This document shows positions 22,868-34,389 of a stretch of DNA of 64,000 nucleotides, piece after piece. The stretch is from assembly GCF_022654015.1 (NCBI RefSeq), contig NZ_CP073063.1:310001-374000 (forward strand). The letters are read 5' to 3'. A program made the position numbers and the translations under genes. This DNA comes from Brevundimonas diminuta. Lineage in GTDB: Bacteria > Pseudomonadota > Alphaproteobacteria > Caulobacterales > Caulobacteraceae. Every line of letters starts with the position of its first letter. Position 1 is the stretch's first letter. Below the pieces are notes generated by a model. That model was not told the origin of the DNA, searched no databases, and saw nothing but the letters and a program-made list of their open reading frames with translations.

Positions 22868-23758
22868 TCAGCCGCGCATCAAACGGCGGCACAGGTCGTC
22901 GAGCTGCTCCAGCGAGCCGTAGCCGATCGTCAGCTCGCCCTTGCCCCCCTTGTCCGACAACTGGACCTTCAGGCCCAGCGCATCGGCCAGATCCTGCTGC
23001 AGGGCGGCGACATCGGCCGCGCCCTCGCCGCCTGCGGCCGCCGACGCCGACTTGGCCTTGGTCGGCTTCGGTCCCTCCACCGCTCGACGCGCCAGAGCCT
23101 CGGTCTCACGGACGCTGAGACCATCCACGAAGGCGATGTCCGCCAGCTGACCCGGATCGGGCGTATTGATCAGCGCCCGGGCATGACCCGCCGACAGCTT
23201 GCCTTCACGCACATAGAACAGCACCCGCTCAGGCAGTTGCAGCAGGCGCATGGTGTTGGCCACGTGGCTGCGGCTCTTGCCGATCACGCCCGCCACCGCA
23301 TCCTGCGTTCGTCCAAAGCGCTCCATCAAAACGCGATAGGCCTCGGCCTCTTCCAGAGGATTCAGGTCCGCGCGCTGGACGTTCTCGACGATCGCGACTT
23401 CGAACACTTCGACGTCGTCCATCTCGTGGACCACGATCGGCACTTCGGTCAGGCGCGCCGCCTGCGACGCGCGCCAGCGGCGTTCGCCGGCGATGATCTG
23501 CCAAACGCCGTCCTCCCCCGGTTGGGTCCGCACCAGGATCGGCTGCAGCACGCCCTTGTCGCGGATCGAGGCGGTCAGTTCCTCCAGATCCTCCTGTCGG
23601 AAGGTCTTGCGGGGCTGGTCGGGATTGGGCTTCAGGCTTTCGATCGGCACGCGTTGCACACCGGCGGGCACGGGCGCGTCGGATGCGACCGGCGCTTCGG
23701 CGTCCTGTCCCAACAACGCCGACAGGCCGCGGCCCAGACCTCTTTGTCGTTCAGCCAA
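22868..23758 (-). CDS. parB: Chromosome partitioning protein ParB
   Basis: 296 residues. Starts RGLGRGLSALLG after a few residues, then the CTP-binding ParB/Srx domain with the GERRWRA box (about residue 90), a helix-turn-helix that reads parS (AVAGVIGKSRSHVANTMRLL, about 140-160) and a C-terminal dimerisation region. ParB is a CTP-dependent sliding clamp loaded at parS. The only sensible start is TTG at 23758, with GGAAGAG 4 bases upstream. parA lies 24 bases upstream on the same strand and four parS sites lie nearby. Confidence 0.97.
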   Translation of the reverse strand: MAERQRGLGRGLSALLGQDAEAPVASDAPVPAGVQRVPIESLKPNPDQPRKTFRQEDLEELTASIRDKGVLQPILVRTQPGEDGVWQIIAGERRWRASQAARLTEVPIVVHEMDDVEVFEVAIVENVQRADLNPLEEAEAYRVLMERFGRTQDAVAGVIGKSRSHVANTMRLLQLPERVLFYVREGKLSAGHARALINTPDPGQLADIAFVDGLSVRETEALARRAVEGPKPTKAKSASAAAGGEGAADVAALQQDLADALGLKVQLSDKGGKGELTIGYGSLEQLDDLCRRLMRG

Positions 23759-23782: not shown

Positions 23783-24601
23783 TCAGGCGGCCAGCTTCAG
23801 CCGCTGGCGTTCGCGCTTCACCACTTCTTTGGCCAGTCGCAAATAGGCCTGGCTGCCGGCGCACTTCAGATCATAGATCAGCGCGGGCTTGCCGAACGAC
23901 GGCGCCTCGGCGACGCGGACGTTACGCGGGATCACGCTCTCATAGACCTTGTCGCCGAAGTGCGCGCGGACGTCGTTCGCCACCTGTCCCGACAGGGCGC
24001 TACGACGGTCGAACATGGTCAGGACCAAACCCTGAATTTCCAGCGATGGATTGAGGCTGTGCTTGACCATATCGATGGTGCGCATCAGCTGGCTCAGGCC
24101 TTCCAGGGCGAAGAACTCGCATTGCAACGGCACCAGCACCGCATCCGCCGCCGCCATCGCATTCAAAGTCAGCAAATTCAGCGAGGGGGGGCAGTCGATC
24201 AGCACATAGTCATACGCGGTAGGGCCATCGTCGTGGGCGCGCAGGGCGTCGCGCAGCCGATAGGACCGGCGATCCGCCTGGCTTAGTTCGATTTCGACGC
24301 CCGACATATCGGCGTCAGCCGGCACGATCCACAGACCCGGCACCGTAGTCTGTACCGACGCATCGGCGACGGAGCGCTGATCCACGACGACATCATAGAT
24401 GGTGACTCGACGTGTTTCACGTGGAACACCCAGACCCGTCGAGGCATTGCCCTGCGGGTCCATATCCACGATCAGCACACGCTCTCCAATCGCGGCCAAG
24501 GCGGTTCCAAGGTTGATCGCCGTCGTCGTCTTGCCCACTCCACCCTTTTGGTTGGACACCGCGAGGACGCGGGCGGGCTTTCTAGCGCGTTGAGCGGGCA
24601 C
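23783..24601 (-). CDS. parA: Chromosome partitioning ATPase ParA
   Basis: 272 residues. Deviant Walker A (SNQKGGVGKTTT, about 16-27), Walker A' DMDPQGNAST and Walker B YVLIDCPPSLN identify the chromosomal ParA/Soj ATPase that drives origin segregation. The start is GTG at 24601, overlapping the end of rsmG by 20 bases; no ATG lies before the Walker motif. A parS-like site (24413-24428) lies inside the coding region at VPRET. Confidence 0.97.
   Translation of the reverse strand: MPAQRARKPARVLAVSNQKGGVGKTTTAINLGTALAAIGERVLIVDMDPQGNASTGLGVPRETRRVTIYDVVVDQRSVADASVQTTVPGLWIVPADADMSGVEIELSQADRRSYRLRDALRAHDDGPTAYDYVLIDCPPSLNLLTLNAMAAADAVLVPLQCEFFALEGLSQLMRTIDMVKHSLNPSLEIQGLVLTMFDRRSALSGQVANDVRAHFGDKVYESVIPRNVRVAEAPSFGKPALIYDLKCAGSQAYLRLAKEVVKRERQRLKLAA
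24413..24428. other. parS-like site 1, inside parA
   Basis: TGTTTCACGTGGAACA matches the 16-base parS palindrome TGTTTCACGTGAAACA at 15 positions. On the parA strand it codes for VPRET; the single change makes Pro where a perfect site would code Ser. Confidence 0.75.
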
Positions 24602-25214
24602 GGCGGAGGCTCCGGATTGTCACGATGCGGCCGCGCACGTCGCTTTGCGACGGGGCCAGTTCAGCCTCGAAATGCCAGGATTTGCGCGCTTCGATCAACT
24701 CGGATTCGGCACGCTCCCCCTTCAGGAACAGACCTTGTGCACCCCTTTGGAAGTAGGGCTGTGCATAACTCAGCAGTTTCTCCATCGGCGCAACGGCGCG
24801 GGCGGTGACAACGTCGCATGTCAAAGATTGCGCCTCAGCCCGACCAACGACGACCGTCGCCGGCAGGGACAATGCATCCACCATCTCCTGAAGAAATCGG
24901 CAGCGTTTGGCCAGGCTGTCGATCAGCCAGACATGCGCCCCTTCCCGTCCCTTCAACATGATGGAAAGCACCAGGCCTGGGAAGCCGGCCCCGGCGCCCA
25001 GATCGGCCCAAGTTCGGGCTTCTGGCGCCAGGTCGAGCAGCTGCGCGCTGTCCCAGACGTGGCGGTTCCAGAAGTCTGGCAGACTATCCGGCCCCACAAG
25101 ATTCATCACCGCGTTGGCTTCGACTAACCGCAGTCGGAAGGCCTCAAGGTCGGCCATTTGCTCCGAAGACGCATTGGCGCGCGAACGAAAGGCTTGCTGT
25201 TCGATCTCCAACAT
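24582..25214 (-). CDS. rsmG: 16S rRNA (guanine-527-N7)-methyltransferase
   Basis: 210 residues. GidB/RsmG methylates G527 of 16S rRNA using SAM. Motif I DLGAGAGFPGLVLSI (about 75-90), an N-terminal helix region, PATVVVGRAEAQ and VTARAVAPMEKLL fit the family. ATG 25214 overlaps the mnmG stop by one base (TGATG). It is followed by parA with a 20-base overlap, the classical gidA-gidB-parA-parB order. Confidence 0.95.
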   Translation of the reverse strand: MLEIEQQAFRSRANASSEQMADLEAFRLRLVEANAVMNLVGPDSLPDFWNRHVWDSAQLLDLAPEARTWADLGAGAGFPGLVLSIMLKGREGAHVWLIDSLAKRCRFLQEMVDALSLPATVVVGRAEAQSLTCDVVTARAVAPMEKLLSYAQPYFQRGAQGLFLKGERAESELIEARKSWHFEAELAPSQSDVRGRIVTIRSLRRARSTR

Positions 25215-27094
25215 CAAGCCGCGACCGACGCCTTGGGCGCGCGCTTCACATGGGCCAGCAGCGCCGTCAGCGCGCCCGGCGTCATTCCCTCGATCCGGCC
25301 GGCCTGGCCCAGGGTACGAGGTTGGACGCGAGCCAGCTTCTCCTTGACCTCGTTCGAAAGACCGCCGACGGCGCCGTAGTCGAGATCAGTCGGAAGCATC
25401 AGCCCCTCCTCAGCCTTCAGAGCGTCGGCATCCTGCGATTGGCGATCCAGGTAGTTGGCGTAAGCCGCGTCAATCTGGACCTGCTCCTGTACGTCAGGGC
25501 TCCACGTCGAGATGATGGGTACGGCTGGAACGAAGTGATCCAAAGTCACGTCGGGGAAGGCCAACAGTTCGCGCATCGACCTTCGCCGCCCGTCAGCATT
25601 GACCGAGATACCGAGCGCGCCAGCCTCGTTCGGCGTAAACAGTGTTTCACGTGAAACAGTGCTCGCTGCTGCAAGCGCCGCGGCCTTGCCTTCAAACCGA
25701 ATGCGCCGCTTCTCGCCGACGATGCCCAGCTTGATCGCAAGGGGTGTCAGCCGAAGATCGGCGTTGTCCGCTCGCAGCGTCAGCCGATACTCCGCCCGGC
25801 TGGTGAACATCCTGTACGGTTCGGTCACACCGCGCGTCACCAAGTCGTCGATCATGACGCCGATATACGCCTGATCACGCCCCAGGATCACCGGCTCCTG
25901 CCGGGCTGCCGACCGCGCGGCGTTCAGCCCCGCCATCAGCCCCTGAGCCGCAGCCTCCTCATAACCCGTGGTGCCGTTGATCTGTCCGGCCAAATACAGC
26001 CCGGGGCGCTTCTTGACCTCCAGCGCCGCCGTCAGCTCGCGCGGATCGACGTAGTCGTATTCGATGGCGTAGCCGTATCGGAAAACCTCAACCGCTTCCA
26101 GGCCGGGAATGGTACGCAGGAAGGCGAGTTGCGTCGCCTCCGATACCGAGGTCGAAATCCCATTCGGATACACCGTTGGATCGTCCAGCCCTTCCGGCTC
26201 CAGGAAGATCTGATGGCTGGTCTTGTCGGCGAACCGAACGACCTTGTCTTCGATCGACGGACAATACCGCGGCCCCCGGCCCGACAGCTTGCCGCCATAG
26301 ACGGCGCTCTCGCCAAGGTTCTCAGCGATGATCCGATGGGTTTCCTCGGTCGTGTGCGTCACGCCGCAGGCGATCTGGGGCACGTCGATCCGGTCGGTCA
26401 GGAAGGAAAAGGCTGACGGCGCATCGTCCGCCTCCTGCATTTCCAGACGGTCCCAGGCGATTGTTCGCCCGTCCAGGCGTGCCGGCGTGCCTGTTTTCAG
26501 ACGCCCCATCATCAGGCCGGCCGCGTGAAGATCGGCGGCCAGACCGGTCGAGGGCTCCTCGCCATGCCGCCCCGCCGGTATGCGTTCGTCGCCGCGATGA
26601 ATGACGCCGTTCAGGAAGGTGCCGGTCGTCAGCACGACCGCCCCGGCGCGAACCGTCTCTCCCGCGCCGGTGACGACCCCGACGACACGGCTGCCTTCGC
26701 GAATAAGCCGCTCGGCCGTCCCCGCCATCAGGGTCAGATTGGGCGTGCCCTTCAGTTCGGCCTGCATGGCCTCGCGATAGAGGCGGCGGTCGATCTGACT
26801 GCGCGGACCCCGAACGGCGGCGCCCTTGGATCGGTTCAGCAGGCGGAATTGGATGCCGGACACATCGGCCAACCGTCCAATGACGCCGTCCATGGCGTCG
26901 ATCTCGCGAACCAGATGGCCCTTCCCCAGCCCTCCGATGGCCGGGTTGCACGACATCTCGCCAATCGTCTCCAGCTTCTGGGTCAACAGAACCGTGTTGG
27001 CGCCGGCGCGTGCTGAGGCCGCCGCCGCTTCGCAGCCGGCATGGCCGCCGCCGATGACGACGACGTCGAAGAGGAGATCAGGGGGAGAATTCAT
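25214..27094 (-). CDS. mnmG: tRNA uridine-34 carboxymethylaminomethyl modification enzyme MnmG
   Basis: 626 residues. FAD enzyme that with MnmE modifies U34 of several tRNAs. Rossmann motif [14 protein letters not shown] near 11, [23 protein letters not shown] near 48, and the C-terminal helical domain that binds MnmE ([17 protein letters not shown] near 575) are all seen. ATG 27094 ([17 protein letters not shown]) is preferred to the TTG at 27112. A perfect parS lies within the gene at 25643-25658 (residues VSRET). Confidence 0.96.
25643..25658. other. parS site 2, inside mnmG
   Basis: TGTTTCACGTGAAACA, a perfect 16 of 16 match to the bacterial parS consensus. It is read as VSRET in MnmG, a linker region in the C-terminal third. 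It is the best parS in the window. Confidence 0.93.
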
Positions 27095-27165
27095 CGCCGC
27101 CACATAAGCCAAAACGCGTATGATCGCCAGAGGTGGGCCAATCGGATCGGCCCGCGACCCGCATC

Positions 27166-27181
27166 TGTTTCACGTGAAACG
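27166..27181. other. parS site 3, between mnmG and mnmE
   Basis: The core GTTTCACGTGAAAC (27167-27180) is perfect; the outer bases are T and G instead of T and A. It lies in the 102-base gap between mnmE and mnmG, 72 bases upstream of the mnmG start. Confidence 0.88.
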
Positions 27182-27196
27182 CTGGTATGGCTGGAC

Positions 27197-28504
27197 CTAC
27201 TTTCCGATACAGAAGGTTGAAAAGACTTCGCCCAGAATGTCCTCGACACCGATCGCGCCGGTGACGCGGGCCAGAGCATCGGCAGCCCGCCTCAAGTCAT
27301 CGCCTGCCATTTCCGGCGCAACATCAAGCGCCTTGCGCGCCGCATCGACGCTTTCCAGCGCCTCAAGCAAACGCAGCCGATGCCGTTCCTGGGTCACAGC
27401 TGGGAAGTCAGCGCCTGAAAGATCTTGCGCAAGACGAGCAGCAATCCAGTCCCGAAGCTCGATCAGGCCGTCGCCAGTGGTGGTGCTGACCGCGAGAGTC
27501 TCATGGCCGCCGCGTGCTAAACTGACGCCAAGGTCGGACTTGGTCGCCACGATCAGATCGCCATCCTTGACGTAACCCGCCGCCACCCCGTCCATATCAC
27601 CGGGCGCGCGAACCCAAAGACGCAGGTCGGCGAGTTCGGCGCGCATCCGGGCGCGGCGCACACCCTCAGCCTCGACCGGGTCATCGCTATCTCTCAAGCC
27701 AGCCGTATCCGACAAGGTCACGGCATAGCCGCCGATCACCAGATCGGCGTCCAGCACATCCCGCGTGGTGCCCGCGATCGGCGTCACGATGGCCGCTTCA
27801 CGCGCACCCAGCGCATTGAACAGCGACGACTTGCCGGCGTTGGTCTCTCCGATCAGGACAATGCGATAGCCGTCTCTCACCCGTTCGCCACGCCGCCCCG
27901 TATCGGCCGCGTGTCGCAGGTCAGCGCCGAGTCGGTCCAGCACCGGCCCCGCCGTGCGGGCCAGATTGTCCGGCACCTCTTCATCGGGAAAATCGATCTC
28001 GGCCTCGACCAGGGCCAGGGCGTGGAGAAGGTCACGACGAAAACCAGCATAGGTCTCGCTGAGCTTGCCGTCCAACTGCCCCAACGCCTGCTTGGCCTGG
28101 GCGCTGGTTTCCGCGTCGATCAGATCGGCGACCGCCTCAGCTTGCGCCAAGTCCATGCGGCCGTTCTGAAACGCGCGGCGCGTGAACTCGCCGGGGTCCG
28201 CCGGTCGCAAGCCTAGCGCGATCAAGGCGCGGCTGGCGGCCTCGACGACGGCACGACCGCCGTGCAGATGCAGCTCGGCGGCGTCTTCACCGGTGTAACT
28301 GTTGGGCGCCACAAAACGCAGCACCAGCGCCTTATCGATGTGATCGCCGGCATGGCTGAGATCGCGCACCGACGCCATGCGCGGTTTCAGACGGGTTGCG
28401 CCCAGCGCCGTCAACGCGGCCTCGACGCTCGGGCCCGACAAACGAAGCACCGCGATGGCGCCTCGGCCGGGCGGTGTCGCCAAGGCGAAGATGGTGTCGA
28501 TCAT
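27197..28504 (-). CDS. mnmE: tRNA modification GTPase MnmE
   Basis: 435 residues. The N-terminal tetrahydrofolate-binding domain (IFALATPPGRGAIAVLRLSG), central helical domain and inserted G domain (GETNAGKSSLFN near 225, DTAGLRDSDD near 270, TKSD near 330) are in order, ending in the C-terminal CIGK with its catalytic cysteine. With MnmG it installs the cmnm5 group at U34. ATG 28504 is clear. Downstream, mnmG starts after 102 bases that include parS 3. Confidence 0.97.
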   Translation of the reverse strand: MIDTIFALATPPGRGAIAVLRLSGPSVEAALTALGATRLKPRMASVRDLSHAGDHIDKALVLRFVAPNSYTGEDAAELHLHGGRAVVEAASRALIALGLRPADPGEFTRRAFQNGRMDLAQAEAVADLIDAETSAQAKQALGQLDGKLSETYAGFRRDLLHALALVEAEIDFPDEEVPDNLARTAGPVLDRLGADLRHAADTGRRGERVRDGYRIVLIGETNAGKSSLFNALGAREAAIVTPIAGTTRDVLDADLVIGGYAVTLSDTAGLRDSDDPVEAEGVRRARMRAELADLRLWVRAPGDMDGVAAGYVKDGDLIVATKSDLGVSLARGGHETLAVSTTTGDGLIELRDWIAARLAQDLSGADFPAVTQERHRLRLLEALESVDAARKALDVAPEMAGDDLRRAADALARVTGAIGVEDILGEVFSTFCIGK

Positions 28505-28540
28505 CGACTCAGACCGAGCGGCTCCGAAGCGAGCGCGTGC

Positions 28541-28765
28541 TCACTTCACCGCCGCTTCCATCAGACGACGGAACTGGTCCTGGGCCTGGAGGCCGAAGCT
28601 GGTCCAGGTCTTCATCAGTTCCTCGGGCTGCATGGCGGCGACATTGGCCTCCATCCGTTTCTGCATCTCCGCAACCATGGCGTCGTTCAGCGGCGTCACG
28701 TCCGGAAGACCAAGAAAGGCACGAGCCTCCGCCGGGGTGCACTCGACTTCCACATTGACCTTCAT
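28541..28765 (-). CDS. DUF6489-type small protein
   Basis: 74 residues from ATG 28765 (MKVNVEVECTPAEARAFLGL). The pattern CTPAEARAFLGLPDV, then MVAEMQKRMEANVA and a C-terminal FRRLMEAAVK is that of DUF6489, a small protein found between rho and mnmE in alphaproteobacteria; name recalled, function unknown. An upstream extension to 28816 would run through parS 4 and is rejected. It lies 36 bases from mnmE. Confidence 0.85.
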   Translation of the reverse strand: MKVNVEVECTPAEARAFLGLPDVTPLNDAMVAEMQKRMEANVAAMQPEELMKTWTSFGLQAQDQFRRLMEAAVK

Positions 28766-28777
28766 CGCGCGGTTTCC

Positions 28778-28793
28778 TGTTTCACGTGAAACG
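28778..28793. other. parS site 4, between rho and DUF6489 gene
   Basis: The core GTTTCACGTGAAAC (28779-28792) is perfect; the last outer base is G. It sits 13 bases upstream of the DUF6489 ATG, where ParB binding could also affect that gene's expression. Confidence 0.88.
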
Positions 28794-30956: not shown

Positions 30957-32014
30957 GCCGCCTGCCTTGCCTTGCGATGCGGGCAGGCCTTCCAGTCCGC
31001 CTTGCAGCCCTGACCGAACGGCGCGACGCCTCTGTGGGACAGTGCGCCCACCGCCGCCTCGGCCAGAGCGTCGATGAACAGCGGCTCGATCCCGACCGCC
31101 GGCGCCCGCAAATAGGGACTGGCCCCTTTTTCGTGGGCCAGTTCGCCGTATTCAATATCCAGCTCGACCAGGGTCTCGATATGCTCCGAGACGAAGGCGA
31201 TAGGCGTGACGACGACCCCGACGCCGTCTTTGGCCGCGGCTTGAATGGCTTCCGGCGTCGACGGGCCCAGCCATTTCATCGGCCCGACCCGGCTTTGGTA
31301 GCAGATGGCGTGGTCGATCGGCCCGCGTCGGGCCTCGATCGCGGCGACCACGGCAGCGACGGTCGTCTCAATCTGCTCCTGATAGGGATCGCCCTTGCCG
31401 GTCACCAGCTTCTCGGGGATCCCGTGGGCGGAGAACAGCACCCGGACCGGCTGACCCACCGCCTCGTCCAGCTTCTCGCCGATCGCCTGAGCCTGGGCCT
31501 CAACCCAACCTGTCGCGGCCGGATAGCAGCAGACGGCGCGACTGACGCCCGGGCCGGCATAGGCGGCGTTCCAGGCCTTCAACGAGGATTCCGTCGTCGT
31601 GGTCGAAAACTGTGGATAGAGCGGCAGCAGGACGACCTCGTCGGGTCCGAACGCGGCGACCTCGGCCGCCGTCTCTTCGGTCAACGGATGCCAGTAGCGC
31701 ATGGCGATGAAGACCTTGACCTCATAGCCGCCCAGCCGCGCGCCAAGCACCGCCTGCAAAGCCTCGGCCTGGCGACGGGTTTCGGGCAGCAGCGGCGATC
31801 CCCCGCCCATCAGGGCGTAGTTGGCCTGGGCGCTGGTTTCGCGCCGGCTGGAGATCAGTTTGGCCAGAGGCGTGCGCAAGATCCCCGGAAGGCCGATGAT
31901 GGCCGGATCGTTGAACAGGTTGAACAGAAACGGCTTGACCGACGCCTGATCGTCCGGCCCGCCCAGATTGAACAACACCACCGCAATGCGGCGGCCGGGG
32001 GTCGCATCGCTCAT
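30953..32014 (-). CDS. hemH: Ferrochelatase
   Basis: 353 residues. Inserts ferrous iron into protoporphyrin IX, the last step of heme synthesis. The catalytic histidine in LFSAHGIPEKL (about 195), acidic metal-channel segment FVSEHIETLVELDIEY (about 275) and N-terminal VLFNLGGPD are typical. A cysteine-containing tail (QGCKADWKACPHRK) is seen at the C-terminus and might mark an Fe-S type ferrochelatase. The ATG overlaps the hemE stop by 4 bases. Confidence 0.95.
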   Translation of the reverse strand: MSDATPGRRIAVVLFNLGGPDDQASVKPFLFNLFNDPAIIGLPGILRTPLAKLISSRRETSAQANYALMGGGSPLLPETRRQAEALQAVLGARLGGYEVKVFIAMRYWHPLTEETAAEVAAFGPDEVVLLPLYPQFSTTTTESSLKAWNAAYAGPGVSRAVCCYPAATGWVEAQAQAIGEKLDEAVGQPVRVLFSAHGIPEKLVTGKGDPYQEQIETTVAAVVAAIEARRGPIDHAICYQSRVGPMKWLGPSTPEAIQAAAKDGVGVVVTPIAFVSEHIETLVELDIEYGELAHEKGASPYLRAPAVGIEPLFIDALAEAAVGALSHRGVAPFGQGCKADWKACPHRKARQAA

Positions 32015-33069
32015 TGGGCGCCGATCCGTCTCAGAACCTGTTCGACATGGTCGATCGGCACGTCCGGCAGGATGCCGTGGCCGAGGTTGAACAGCCAGGG
32101 CCCCTGCCCCCAGGCCTCCATCAGCCGGTCGACACGTCGGTCCAGCAGATCGCCGCCGGCGCGCAGCAACAGCGGGTCGAGCGCGCCCTGGATCGGCTTG
32201 ATCTGCTGCACGCGTTTACCGACCTCGAGCGGGCAGGCGGTGTCTAGGGCGACGGCGTCGACCTCGACCTCTTCAGCATACCGCTCTGCAAGCGCCGCAG
32301 AGCCCCGTGGGAAGCCGATGAGGGGTACGGTGACCCCCAGCTCCCGCGTGCGCTTCACAAGCGCTTGGTGGGGCTTCAAGACCAATCTTTCGAACAGGTC
32401 GTCCGGCAGCCCCTCGGCCCAACTCTCGAAGATCTTCAGAACTTGGGCGCCGGCGTCCGCCTGCATCTTCAGATATCGGGCGGTGGCCTCGACCAGAACC
32501 TCCAGCGTCTCGTCGACACGCTCGGGATCGGCATAGGCGTAGGAGCGGGCCTGGGCGCGTTCGCCCTTGCCGATGGTGCGCGCCTGGCCGTCCAGCATAT
32601 AGGTCGCCACGGTCCAGGGGGCGCCGGCGAAGCCGATCAGGGCCCGTTCCGGCTCCAGGGCCGCGCGCACGATGGACAGGGTCTCGCCCACCGCCGACAG
32701 ATGCTCGCCCGCCGCCGGGGCCAGTTCAGACATCCGACCCGGGATCGGCATTTCGCCCAGACGCGGCCCCTCCCCCGTCTCGAACCAAACGTCCTGGCCC
32801 AGGGCGCGGGGGATCAGCAGGATATCGGCGAAGACGATGGCCGCATCGAACCCGAACCGCCGCATCGGCTGGAGCGTCGCCTCGGCCGCCATCTCGGGGT
32901 TCAGGCAGAAGGCGATAAAGTCGGGCGCCTCGGCCCTTAGCTTGCGATATTCCGGCAGATACCGACCGGCCTGGCGCATGAACCACACCGGCGGACGCTC
33001 CAGCGTCTCTCCACGGAGAGCCCGGAGCACCAAGGGTGTCGGATCGGCAGTCTGGGTCTGATCGGTCAT
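32011..33069 (-). CDS. hemE: Uroporphyrinogen decarboxylase
   Basis: 352 residues. Decarboxylates uroporphyrinogen III to coproporphyrinogen III. The signature PVWFMRQAGRYLPEYR near 28, GFAGAPWTVATYM near 143 and the C-terminal FNLGHGILPD are present. The gene is the first of a leftward heme operon (hemE-hemH-hemJ) and borders the proposed replication origin, as in C. crescentus. No clear ribosome site precedes ATG 33069. Confidence 0.96.
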   Translation of the reverse strand: MTDQTQTADPTPLVLRALRGETLERPPVWFMRQAGRYLPEYRKLRAEAPDFIAFCLNPEMAAEATLQPMRRFGFDAAIVFADILLIPRALGQDVWFETGEGPRLGEMPIPGRMSELAPAAGEHLSAVGETLSIVRAALEPERALIGFAGAPWTVATYMLDGQARTIGKGERAQARSYAYADPERVDETLEVLVEATARYLKMQADAGAQVLKIFESWAEGLPDDLFERLVLKPHQALVKRTRELGVTVPLIGFPRGSAALAERYAEEVEVDAVALDTACPLEVGKRVQQIKPIQGALDPLLLRAGGDLLDRRVDRLMEAWGQGPWLFNLGHGILPDVPIDHVEQVLRRIGAQ

Positions 33070-33264
33070 GCCGGAGGATTAAGGTCACAGCCCCCCGCTC
33101 TCAATCCCTAATCAGATTAAGAATTAAAAGATTCGAAGTGGCAGGTAGGGCGGTGGAATGGCGGGGATGACTCGATCGGCGGCGACGGAACAAAAGCGGA
33201 TATCCACGCCTGGCCTATCGTTAACGGGGATGTCGAAACGGCTGATCCCGCCGGTGGACAATCC

Positions 33265-33279
33265 CTAACGAAACCTTAA
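33265..33279 (-). promoter_or_regulatory. CtrA-like site 1 in origin
   Basis: CTAA-N7-TTAA on the plus strand, that is TTAA-N7-TTAG on the complement, 7 of 8 fixed bases of the CtrA consensus TTAA-N7-TTAA. It is the near mirror of site 2. Confidence 0.55.
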
Positions 33280-33316
33280 CAGGTAAGGGTTTGCGGGGAC
33301 TTGCGGCTGTGAACGC

Positions 33317-33343
33317 GGTTAAGCGACGTTAACCTTTCATTAG
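33317..33343 (+). promoter_or_regulatory. CtrA-like site 2 with overlapping TTAA palindrome in origin
   Basis: TTAA-N7-TTAG at 33329-33343 (TTAACC start as in strong CtrA sites). It overlaps the perfect palindrome GGTTAA-N6-TTAACC (33317-33334). The best DnaA-box match begins 3 bases to the right, so CtrA and DnaA would contact adjacent DNA. Confidence 0.6.
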
Positions 33344-33345
33344 GA

Positions 33346-33354
33346 TTTTCCACA
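33346..33354 (+). promoter_or_regulatory. DnaA box
   Basis: TTTTCCACA, one mismatch from TTATCCACA. It is the best DnaA-box match in the proposed origin and lies next to CtrA-like site 2. Confidence 0.6.
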
Positions 33355-33519
33355 GCGGTTTGAAATTCGGTTTTCCGCCTTGGGATGATCCAGCGGCTGA
33401 CTGCTGACGCGATCCACCATCATCCCCGCTCGCGGGCGGATCGATCAGCGGCTAAGAGAAACGGCGCCCCGATGGTCCAACGCCGTCCCCCAACTTTCAA
33501 CAGGGAGACAGACAGTCTC

Positions 33520-34389
33520 ATGAGCCCTGCGAGACCCTCGGGACCGGCCCGTCTGGCCACCTATTTCCACGTTCATCTGGTGTCGGACTCCACCGGCGAG
33601 ACCTTGAACGCCATGGCCAAGGCGGTGACCGCGCGTTTCGACGGCGTCATTCCGATCGAGCACATCTATTCCCTGGTGCGATCGTCAAAGCAGATGGAGC
33701 GGGTGCTGCAGGAGGTGGAGTCCGCGCCGGGCGTCGTTCTCCACACCTTGGTCGACCGCGATCTGCGCGAGCAGCTGGAAGAAGGCTGCCGTCGCCTGGA
33801 CATGCCGCAGATCGGCGCGCTGGATCCCTTGGTCGGCGCCATGTCGCGCTATCTCGGCGCGGCCCTGTCCACCCGCGTCGGCGCCCAGCACGCGCTGGAC
33901 CACGACTATTTCAACCGGATCGCGGCGCTGGACTTCGCCATGGCCTACGACGACGGTCAGGGTTCGCTCGATCAGCTGGAGGGCGCCGACGTCGTCCTTT
34001 GCGGGGTCAGCCGCACGTCCAAGACCCCGACCTGCATCTATCTGGCCCACCGGGGCATCCGGGCGGCCAACGTGCCTCTGGTGCCGGGTCAGGAGGATGG
34101 CGAGCGGCTGACCAAGCTGAAGAACCCCTTGGTGATCGGCCTGACCGTATCGCCGGATCGACTGGTTCAGATCCGCCGCAACCGCATCGACAATCTGAAC
34201 GCCAGCCAATCGTCGAACTATACCGATCAGGACGCCGTGCGCGACGAGACGATCAAGGCCCGGCGGGCCTTCGAGCGGCGCGGCTGGCCGACCATCGACG
34301 TGACCCGCCGCTCGGTCGAGGAGACGGCGGCGGCGATCACCAATCTTCTGAGCGAGCACCGCAACCACAAGATCGGGACGACCTGGTGA
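33520..34389 (+). CDS. ppsR: Pyruvate, phosphate dikinase regulatory protein (DUF299 kinase/phosphotransferase)
   Basis: 289 residues. Bifunctional Ser/Thr kinase and phosphorylase that switches PEP synthase or pyruvate phosphate dikinase off and on. Conserved VHLVSDSTGETL near 17, HTLVDRDLREQLEE near 83, the P-loop-like GVSRTSKTPTCIYLA near 165 and the C-terminal RRSVEETAAAI are seen. ATG 33520 follows GGGAGA at 11 bases; ATG 33472 is a less likely alternative. It is the first gene rightward of the origin (RP001 position in Caulobacter). Confidence 0.92.
   Translation: MSPARPSGPARLATYFHVHLVSDSTGETLNAMAKAVTARFDGVIPIEHIYSLVRSSKQMERVLQEVESAPGVVLHTLVDRDLREQLEEGCRRLDMPQIGALDPLVGAMSRYLGAALSTRVGAQHALDHDYFNRIAALDFAMAYDDGQGSLDQLEGADVVLCGVSRTSKTPTCIYLAHRGIRAANVPLVPGQEDGERLTKLKNPLVIGLTVSPDRLVQIRRNRIDNLNASQSSNYTDQDAVRDETIKARRAFERRGWPTIDVTRRSVEETAAAITNLLSEHRNHKIGTTW

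Follow-up and report, generated by a model that had tools for sequence, protein, structure and literature searches.

The 64,000-nucleotide window analyzed here spans positions 310001 to 374000 on a closed Brevundimonas diminuta contig of 3,209,446 bp (3.21-Mb genome, labeled G000). It contains an intergenic region of exactly 450 bp (33070..33519, unstranded; 343,070-343,519 in contig coordinates), flanked by the divergently oriented genes hemE (32011..33069, minus strand, start codon ending at 33069; above the cut-off of TIGR01464) and ppsR (33520..34389, plus strand; Kinase-PPPase, above the cut-off of NF003742), the latter taken as the ortholog of RP001/COG1806. On the left side, the minus-strand gene set comprises hemE, hemH, a UPF0093 gene, rho, mnmE, mnmG, rsmG, a ParA-like ATPase gene (23783-24601, minus strand; called parA from its domain and position), and parB (22868-23758, minus strand). 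On the right side, the plus-strand set includes ppsR, an unannotated ORF, an aroE-like gene scoring below the cut-offs of the aroE models, coaE, and dnaQ. The original prediction, which proposed this gap as a Cori-type chromosomal origin of replication, agrees with our analysis in the boundaries of the gap, in the diverging genes on both flanks, and in the hemE/ppsR neighborhood, which is that of the Caulobacter Cori. The closest named relatives fetched belong to Brevundimonas, with hemE identities of 92% in a Brevundimonas metagenome-assembled genome and 87% in B. albigilva. The contig itself begins at dnaA, whose domain is encoded at contig positions 397-879, far from the proposed origin.

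The motif content of the gap was compared with 5664 segments of 450 bp drawn from an 864-kb sample of this genome, gap-overlapping segments included. The gap as a whole is richer in AT than the genome, as looked for in a Cori-type origin (44% vs a segment mean of 34%), and is in this respect moderately unusual only, with 129 of the 5664 segments being equally AT-rich. The predicted AT-rich tract in otherwise GC-rich DNA is present next to hemE (33098..33141, unstranded; 70% AT across 33098-33137) and represents a candidate unwinding element. It is followed by the conserved purine-rich element GGCAGGTAGGGC (33140..33151, plus strand), which separates it from the first pair of W-like boxes and whose columns are partly conserved in 28 aligned gaps, window included. 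This purine-rich GTAGGGC element recurs at the same place in the gaps of relatives.

DnaA-like boxes in the gap include one with a single mismatch to TTATNCACA (the best match TTTTCCACA, 33346..33354, plus strand) and two with 2 mismatches, such as TTGTCCACC (33253..33261, minus strand), whose GTGGA core at 33254 is located 91 bp from a GGGGA core at 33163. Thus, the good match and the weak ones proposed originally do exist, but their number at up to 2 mismatches is unremarkable, because 416 of the 5664 segments hold as many. Exact copies of the canonical DnaA box, the G-box, and the TCCCCA W-box are all missing from the 450-bp gap; the G-box TGATCCACA is approached by three matches at 2 mismatches, including the weak G-box-like TGATCCAGC (33386..33394, plus strand), and we regard this box as a trait of C. 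crescentus and not as a defining feature of the family. W-like boxes of the TCCCCR type occur four times, each as TCCCCG, which is equaled by 13 of the 5664 segments. The first of them (33162-33167) belongs to a tandem pair of W-like DnaA boxes spaced by 10 bp (33153..33171, minus strand; GTGGA at 33153 and GGGGA at 33163), two further motif matches are found at 33225..33230 and 33294-33299 on the minus strand, and the fourth is located on the ppsR side inside the conserved ATCATCCCCGCTCGCG block (33423..33428, plus strand). These boxes, which the original prediction did not name, weigh more than some of the items that it listed, and TCCCCG may function as a W-box.

The CtrA-like TTAA motifs noted originally are borne out by the segment comparison: the gap has seven TTAA tetramers, a number as high in 1 of the 5664 segments, and two TTAA-N7-TTAA sites with 1 mismatch, none of them exact, as are also found in 8 of the 5664 segments. 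Sites of this kind are expected in a Cori-type origin, and both are adjacent to DnaA-like boxes: CTAA-N7-TTAA (33265..33279, plus strand) starts 3 bp past TTGTCCACC, and TTAA-N7-TTAG (33329..33343, plus strand) ends 2 bp before TTTTCCACA. Both reported GANTC sites are present but carry no weight, because 545 of the 5664 segments hold as many. Two candidate, uncalibrated matches to an IHF-like consensus occur in the gap at 1 mismatch, and the C. crescentus IHF sequence TAACGCTCTGTT is approached there no closer than with 4 mismatches. Overall, the original list of features is accurate, though some of its items weigh little.

The composition of boxes was further analyzed in 63 related gaps, selected by at least 60% hemE identity with the window excluded, including 33 Brevundimonas-like gaps (at least 74%) and 30 gaps from other Caulobacteraceae (60-74%), the groups being defined through hemE identity and not through a phylogeny of the whole set. 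These gaps almost entirely lack canonical DnaA boxes, and W-like TCCCCR boxes are common in them. Namely, exact TTATCCACA was found in 1 of the 63 gaps (and in 4 of 27 more distant ones), and the exact G-box in two, both among the 30 other Caulobacteraceae (0/33 in the Brevundimonas-like group), while at least three TCCCCR boxes were found in 58 of the 63. The mean number of TCCCCR boxes per gap is 3.94 in the Brevundimonas-like group and 4.67 in the others, and randomly chosen stretches of these loci average 0.36 and 0.38, respectively. The two groups differ in the preferred last base, as TCCCCG predominates over TCCCCA in Brevundimonas-like gaps (3.12 vs 0.82 per gap) and TCCCCA over TCCCCG in the other gaps (3.03 vs 1.63). 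For the remaining comparisons, the window was added and three gaps sharing at least 60% of their 12-mers with another were removed, resulting in a set of 61 gaps, which keeps close relatives such as L124 and contains some species twice. In an unbiased hexamer count over this set, TTAACG, GTTAAC, TCCACA, and ATCCCC were far above dinucleotide shuffles. A separate observation concerns GGCGCC, which occurred 142 times vs 28 expected from shuffles, about the level of TCCACA; it partly reflects a conserved CGGCGCCC block on the ppsR side (33463-33471 in the window), and its excess is explained by neither DnaA nor CtrA.

The arrangement of the boxes is conserved as well. Same-strand G(G/T)GGA boxes located 90-93 bp apart were found in 48 of the 61 gaps, including 31 of the 32 Brevundimonas-like gaps (window included) and 17 of the 29 others. 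The total of 53 such pairs compares with a mean of 4.5 and a maximum of 11 in 1000 random placements, a null model of placement and not of phylogeny; the gaps share ancestry, so the spacing is read as conservation and not as a set of independent origins. A second favored distance of 9-10 bp (31 pairs) corresponds in Brevundimonas-like gaps mostly to the tandem pair beside the AT tract, and in the gap of the window the box cores are at 33153, 33163, and 33254. We also considered a reading of this region as a basal unwinding system with DnaA-trios and rejected it, as in-register trios were found in 13 of 48 gaps vs a shuffled mean of 18, showing no enrichment; a search for at least three NAN triplets within 16 bp of a DnaA box gave a run of one in the gap of the window. 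The literature searched, whose coverage stops short of key C. crescentus origin papers, showed no prior report of the 90-93-bp spacing or of the CtrA-site loss described below, though earlier ones may exist.

At the genome scale, 1.16 Mb (36% of the genome; the contiguous 1-600 kb plus 28 further stretches) were scanned for 450-bp segments with at least three W-like boxes, at least three TTAA, and at least one CtrA-like site, thresholds that were set after the gap had been seen. Eight segments qualified, every one overlapping the gap. At up to 1 mismatch, the genome holds four parS-like 16-mers, all at 334,413-338,793, i.e., 4.7-9.1 kb upstream of ppsR (24413..28793 in the window, unstranded; starts at 24413, 25643, 27166, and 28778). 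In C. crescentus, parS is likewise near the origin. The single 16S gene found (303,713-305,173, minus strand) is co-directional with a fork going left from the gap, and 16S-type genes generally run co-directionally with replication. A first dif pattern had no match in the genome, and a looser one gave two weak matches at 3 mismatches (1,860,260 and 1,982,366). A 26-mer taken around the second was found once in this genome and once in G112 (2 mismatches), and was absent from the other 10 genomes searched; we regard the 1,982,360 site as an unproven dif candidate. By arithmetic, this site is 34 kb (1.1%) from the antipode of the gap at 1,948,018, and the dif-like site of G112 (1,799,797) is 132 kb (4.7%) off the corresponding antipode. 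A plasmid search was also tried and discarded, its five records giving short matches over at most 16% of the query.

The gene neighborhood and the nearby parS-like sites are largely maintained in relatives. Head-to-head hemE and ppsR genes were found at 91 of 110 loci, own locus included (61 of 80 loci found via hemE and 30 of 30 found via ppsR); ppsR was not found in the fetched stretch at 19 of the 80 hemE loci, three of which are labeled Caulobacteraceae (L080, L091, and L097). Twelve closed or nearly closed Caulobacteraceae genomes were examined, this one included, and hemE-ppsR adjacency was checked in G000, G112, and G019. In ten of the twelve, parS-like sites lie upstream, 4.7-13.4 kb away from the start of ppsR; in G047 they are 10-12 kb downstream of ppsR, with further sites elsewhere, and in G096 they are reached from ppsR across the contig end. 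In G103, five additional parS-like sites, exact or nearly so, are remote from the cluster at the origin (893836, 986200, 2695425, 3433023, and 3453271). In a comparison with 6 of 20 G112 stretches, about 19 kb around the gap (328.5-347.2 kb) is collinear between the two genomes, and segments matching the region at 355-374 kb are found to the left of the G112 ppsR, 5 of 6 matches being inverted.

The parS/parAB locus, the 16S direction, the dif-like site, the motif cluster, and the hemE/ppsR synteny together back the central claim of the original prediction, and we consider it very likely that this gap represents oriC, the origin of the chromosome, orthologous to the Caulobacter Cori. It is an expected origin in the expected place, and its assignment is made without reliance on GC skew, which supports the region weakly and pinpoints nothing. 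Among 42 sampled pieces, those up to 384 kb have negative skew, with values close to zero at 40-220 kb; the skew is positive at 410 kb and returns to negative between 1.91 and 2.01 Mb. With the gap as the origin, the skew is positive in 17 of 21 pieces of the right arm and negative in 16 of 21 pieces of the left arm. The check proposed originally, a cumulative GC-skew profile, was done on the contiguous 1-600 kb. Its minimum is at 403,551 (-3614, vs -2610 at 343,295 in the gap), displaced rightward by 60 kb or 1.9% of the chromosome, an outcome intermediate between agreement with the gap and the refuting condition named originally, a minimum far from it. The keto-excess minimum is at 399,176, and the coding-strand-corrected skew minimum is at 403,076 with a bootstrap 95% range of 50-480 kb. 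As precise locators, the coarse, contiguous, strand-corrected, and G112 versions of the skew were all rejected as broad or displaced, and so was the k-mer polarity trained away from both candidate sites; the skew switch is therefore used only as rough support. In G112, the coarse two-step fit is best at 1.14-1.27 Mb, with the ppsR position outside those within 8 of the best. As separate observations, skew of the left-arm type continues rightward past the origin for 60 kb (343-404 kb), a shift similar to that in the G112 samples, whose cumulative minimum lies 38 kb from ppsR on its right side; and GC content drops to 55.8% at contig positions 480001-500000 vs about 67% around, which is likely a genomic island.

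An origin adjoining dnaA (contig position 397, the cut point of the record), as in many bacteria, with the hemE-ppsR gap being a relic or regulatory region, draws its support from this breadth of the skew, and skew alone cannot exclude it. The coarse two-step fit barely separates a point near dnaA at 20-50 kb from the gap (7.3 vs 6.5 relative to the best; lower is better), 38% of the strand-corrected bootstrap mass falls below 300 kb, and the strand-corrected single-switch fit at 100 kb beats that at the gap (204.9 vs 229.8, with 373.8 at position 0; lower is better). The other evidence makes this alternative highly improbable. Four segments tried upstream of dnaA contained neither a W-like box nor a CtrA-like site, the 16S gene would be head-on to a fork from dnaA, the parS-like cluster is 334-339 kb distant, and the dif-like sites are, by arithmetic, 377 kb (G000) and 399 kb (G112) off the antipode of dnaA. 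Moreover, the distance between dnaA and ppsR varies from 6 to 531 kb in the nine genomes measured on one contig, self included (343 kb in G000, 531 in G112, 415 in G019, about 102 in G094, 101 in G068, 85 in G047, 80 in G098, 67 in G103, and 6 kb in G096; in G011, G084, and G101 the path crosses a contig end, and they were left out), with parS staying near ppsR.

Even less probable is an origin near 403 kb, where the cumulative, keto-excess, and strand-corrected minima all fall, 60 kb from the gap on its right side. The gap is the sole ori-like motif cluster in the contiguous 1-600 kb. In addition, the two Brevundimonas genomes compared differ by rearrangement in the right flank; such changes can displace a skew minimum and may be the cause of its displacement here. 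Passages of PMC1914354 also describe skew shifts as broad and skew as insufficient in several alphaproteobacteria. The gap does lie between divergent genes, and the regulation of promoters by CtrA and DnaA is known from parts of PMC4468827, but a mere divergent promoter region under these two regulators would be just as improbable, given the density of TTAA, the 90-93-bp box layout kept across genera, and the parS-like sites and 16S polarity that indicate replication. With the hemE-ppsR gap as oriC, the origin is now placed for this Brevundimonas chromosome, whose record is cut at dnaA, 343 kb away; therefore, origin-distance analyses counted from position 1 would be wrong.

The CtrA-like sites are missing from some of the gaps. 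At least one such site (at most 1 mismatch) was found in 55 of the 61 gaps, and mononucleotide shuffles gave a mean of 2.1 and a maximum of 6. No such site was found in the remaining six gaps, L045, L074, L135, L136, L137, and L126. The first five, among which L074 is from B. diminuta 3F5N, group in one clade of a midpoint-rooted hemE+ppsR tree (support 0.997), in which L126, from G112, is placed elsewhere. CtrA was found in 7 of 7 genomes searched, with 88-90% identity to the C. crescentus query, including the four of the six site-less cases that were searched (G097, G102, G107, and G112; L045 and L074 lay outside the search). Over residues 121-226, the CtrA proteins of these four have 2-3 differences from that of the window genome, and two comparison genomes with CtrA-like origin sites have 0-1. 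At the sequence level, this shows a loss of predicted CtrA sites with the regulator kept, and CtrA binding would accordingly be expected to be lost at the site-less origins.

We propose tentatively, with somewhat less than even confidence, that the most constant part of the Caulobacteraceae origin is neither a strong DnaA box nor control by CtrA but a scaffold of two weak same-orientation W-like boxes, 90-93 bp apart, beside an AT tract. In this view, the CtrA sites form a dispensable layer that was lost at least two times in Brevundimonas (in the B. diminuta clade and in G112) with CtrA and its DNA-binding domain kept. If true, replication would be timed in some close relatives of Caulobacter with no CtrA acting at the origin. 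The comparative pattern opens to testing the question of why weak DnaA sites serve an origin under CtrA control, and it predicts the important sites and their spacing, and natural origins without CtrA-like sites are available for comparison beside origins with them. The comparative facts, i.e., the spacing, the scarcity of strong boxes, and the CtrA-site loss, are the part that specialists might want.

Position, motifs, spacing, and synteny were read from the genomes, and the binding of DnaA and CtrA, the opening, and the firing of this origin would follow by analogy with Cori (PMC4468827, PMC4285127, and PMC1914354). By the same analogy, ATP-DnaA would assemble on weak boxes, namely the tandem W-like pair by the AT tract and the same-orientation box 91 bp further on, as well as TTTTCCACA and the ppsR-side boxes. 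DnaA would then open the AT-rich tract next to hemE and load the helicase for two forks, phosphorylated CtrA, acting from two sites 2-3 bp from DnaA-like boxes, would exclude DnaA, and ParB bound to parS, 4-9 kb away, would subsequently segregate the copied origin.

Among known systems, the gap resembles the Bacillus subtilis basal unwinding system, as presented in part of PMC8287927, in its tandem box-like pair, short GC-rich spacer, and purine-rich and AT-rich flank, in a seemingly matching order, although in-register DnaA-trios are unenriched here. It shares the same flanking genes, hemE and COG1806, with the Rickettsia prowazekii oriC according to passages of PMC1914354, a likeness drawn by flanking genes only, the Rickettsia genome being AT-rich. 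The closest counterpart is the C. crescentus origin, which excerpts of PMC1914354 place between hemE and COG1806, and for which those of PMC4285127 and PMC4468827 list two G-boxes TGATCCACA, five W-boxes TCCCCA, and five CtrA sites. Compared by description, the gap reported here differs from it in having four TCCCCG boxes and two 1-mismatch CtrA-like sites, with no exact G-box or TCCCCA, and is similar to it, as far as the same excerpts go (PMC1914354, PMC4285127, and PMC4468827), in its position between hemE and COG1806/ppsR, its weak TCCCC-type boxes, its CtrA TTAA-N7-TTAA sites close to DnaA boxes, and its AT-rich part.
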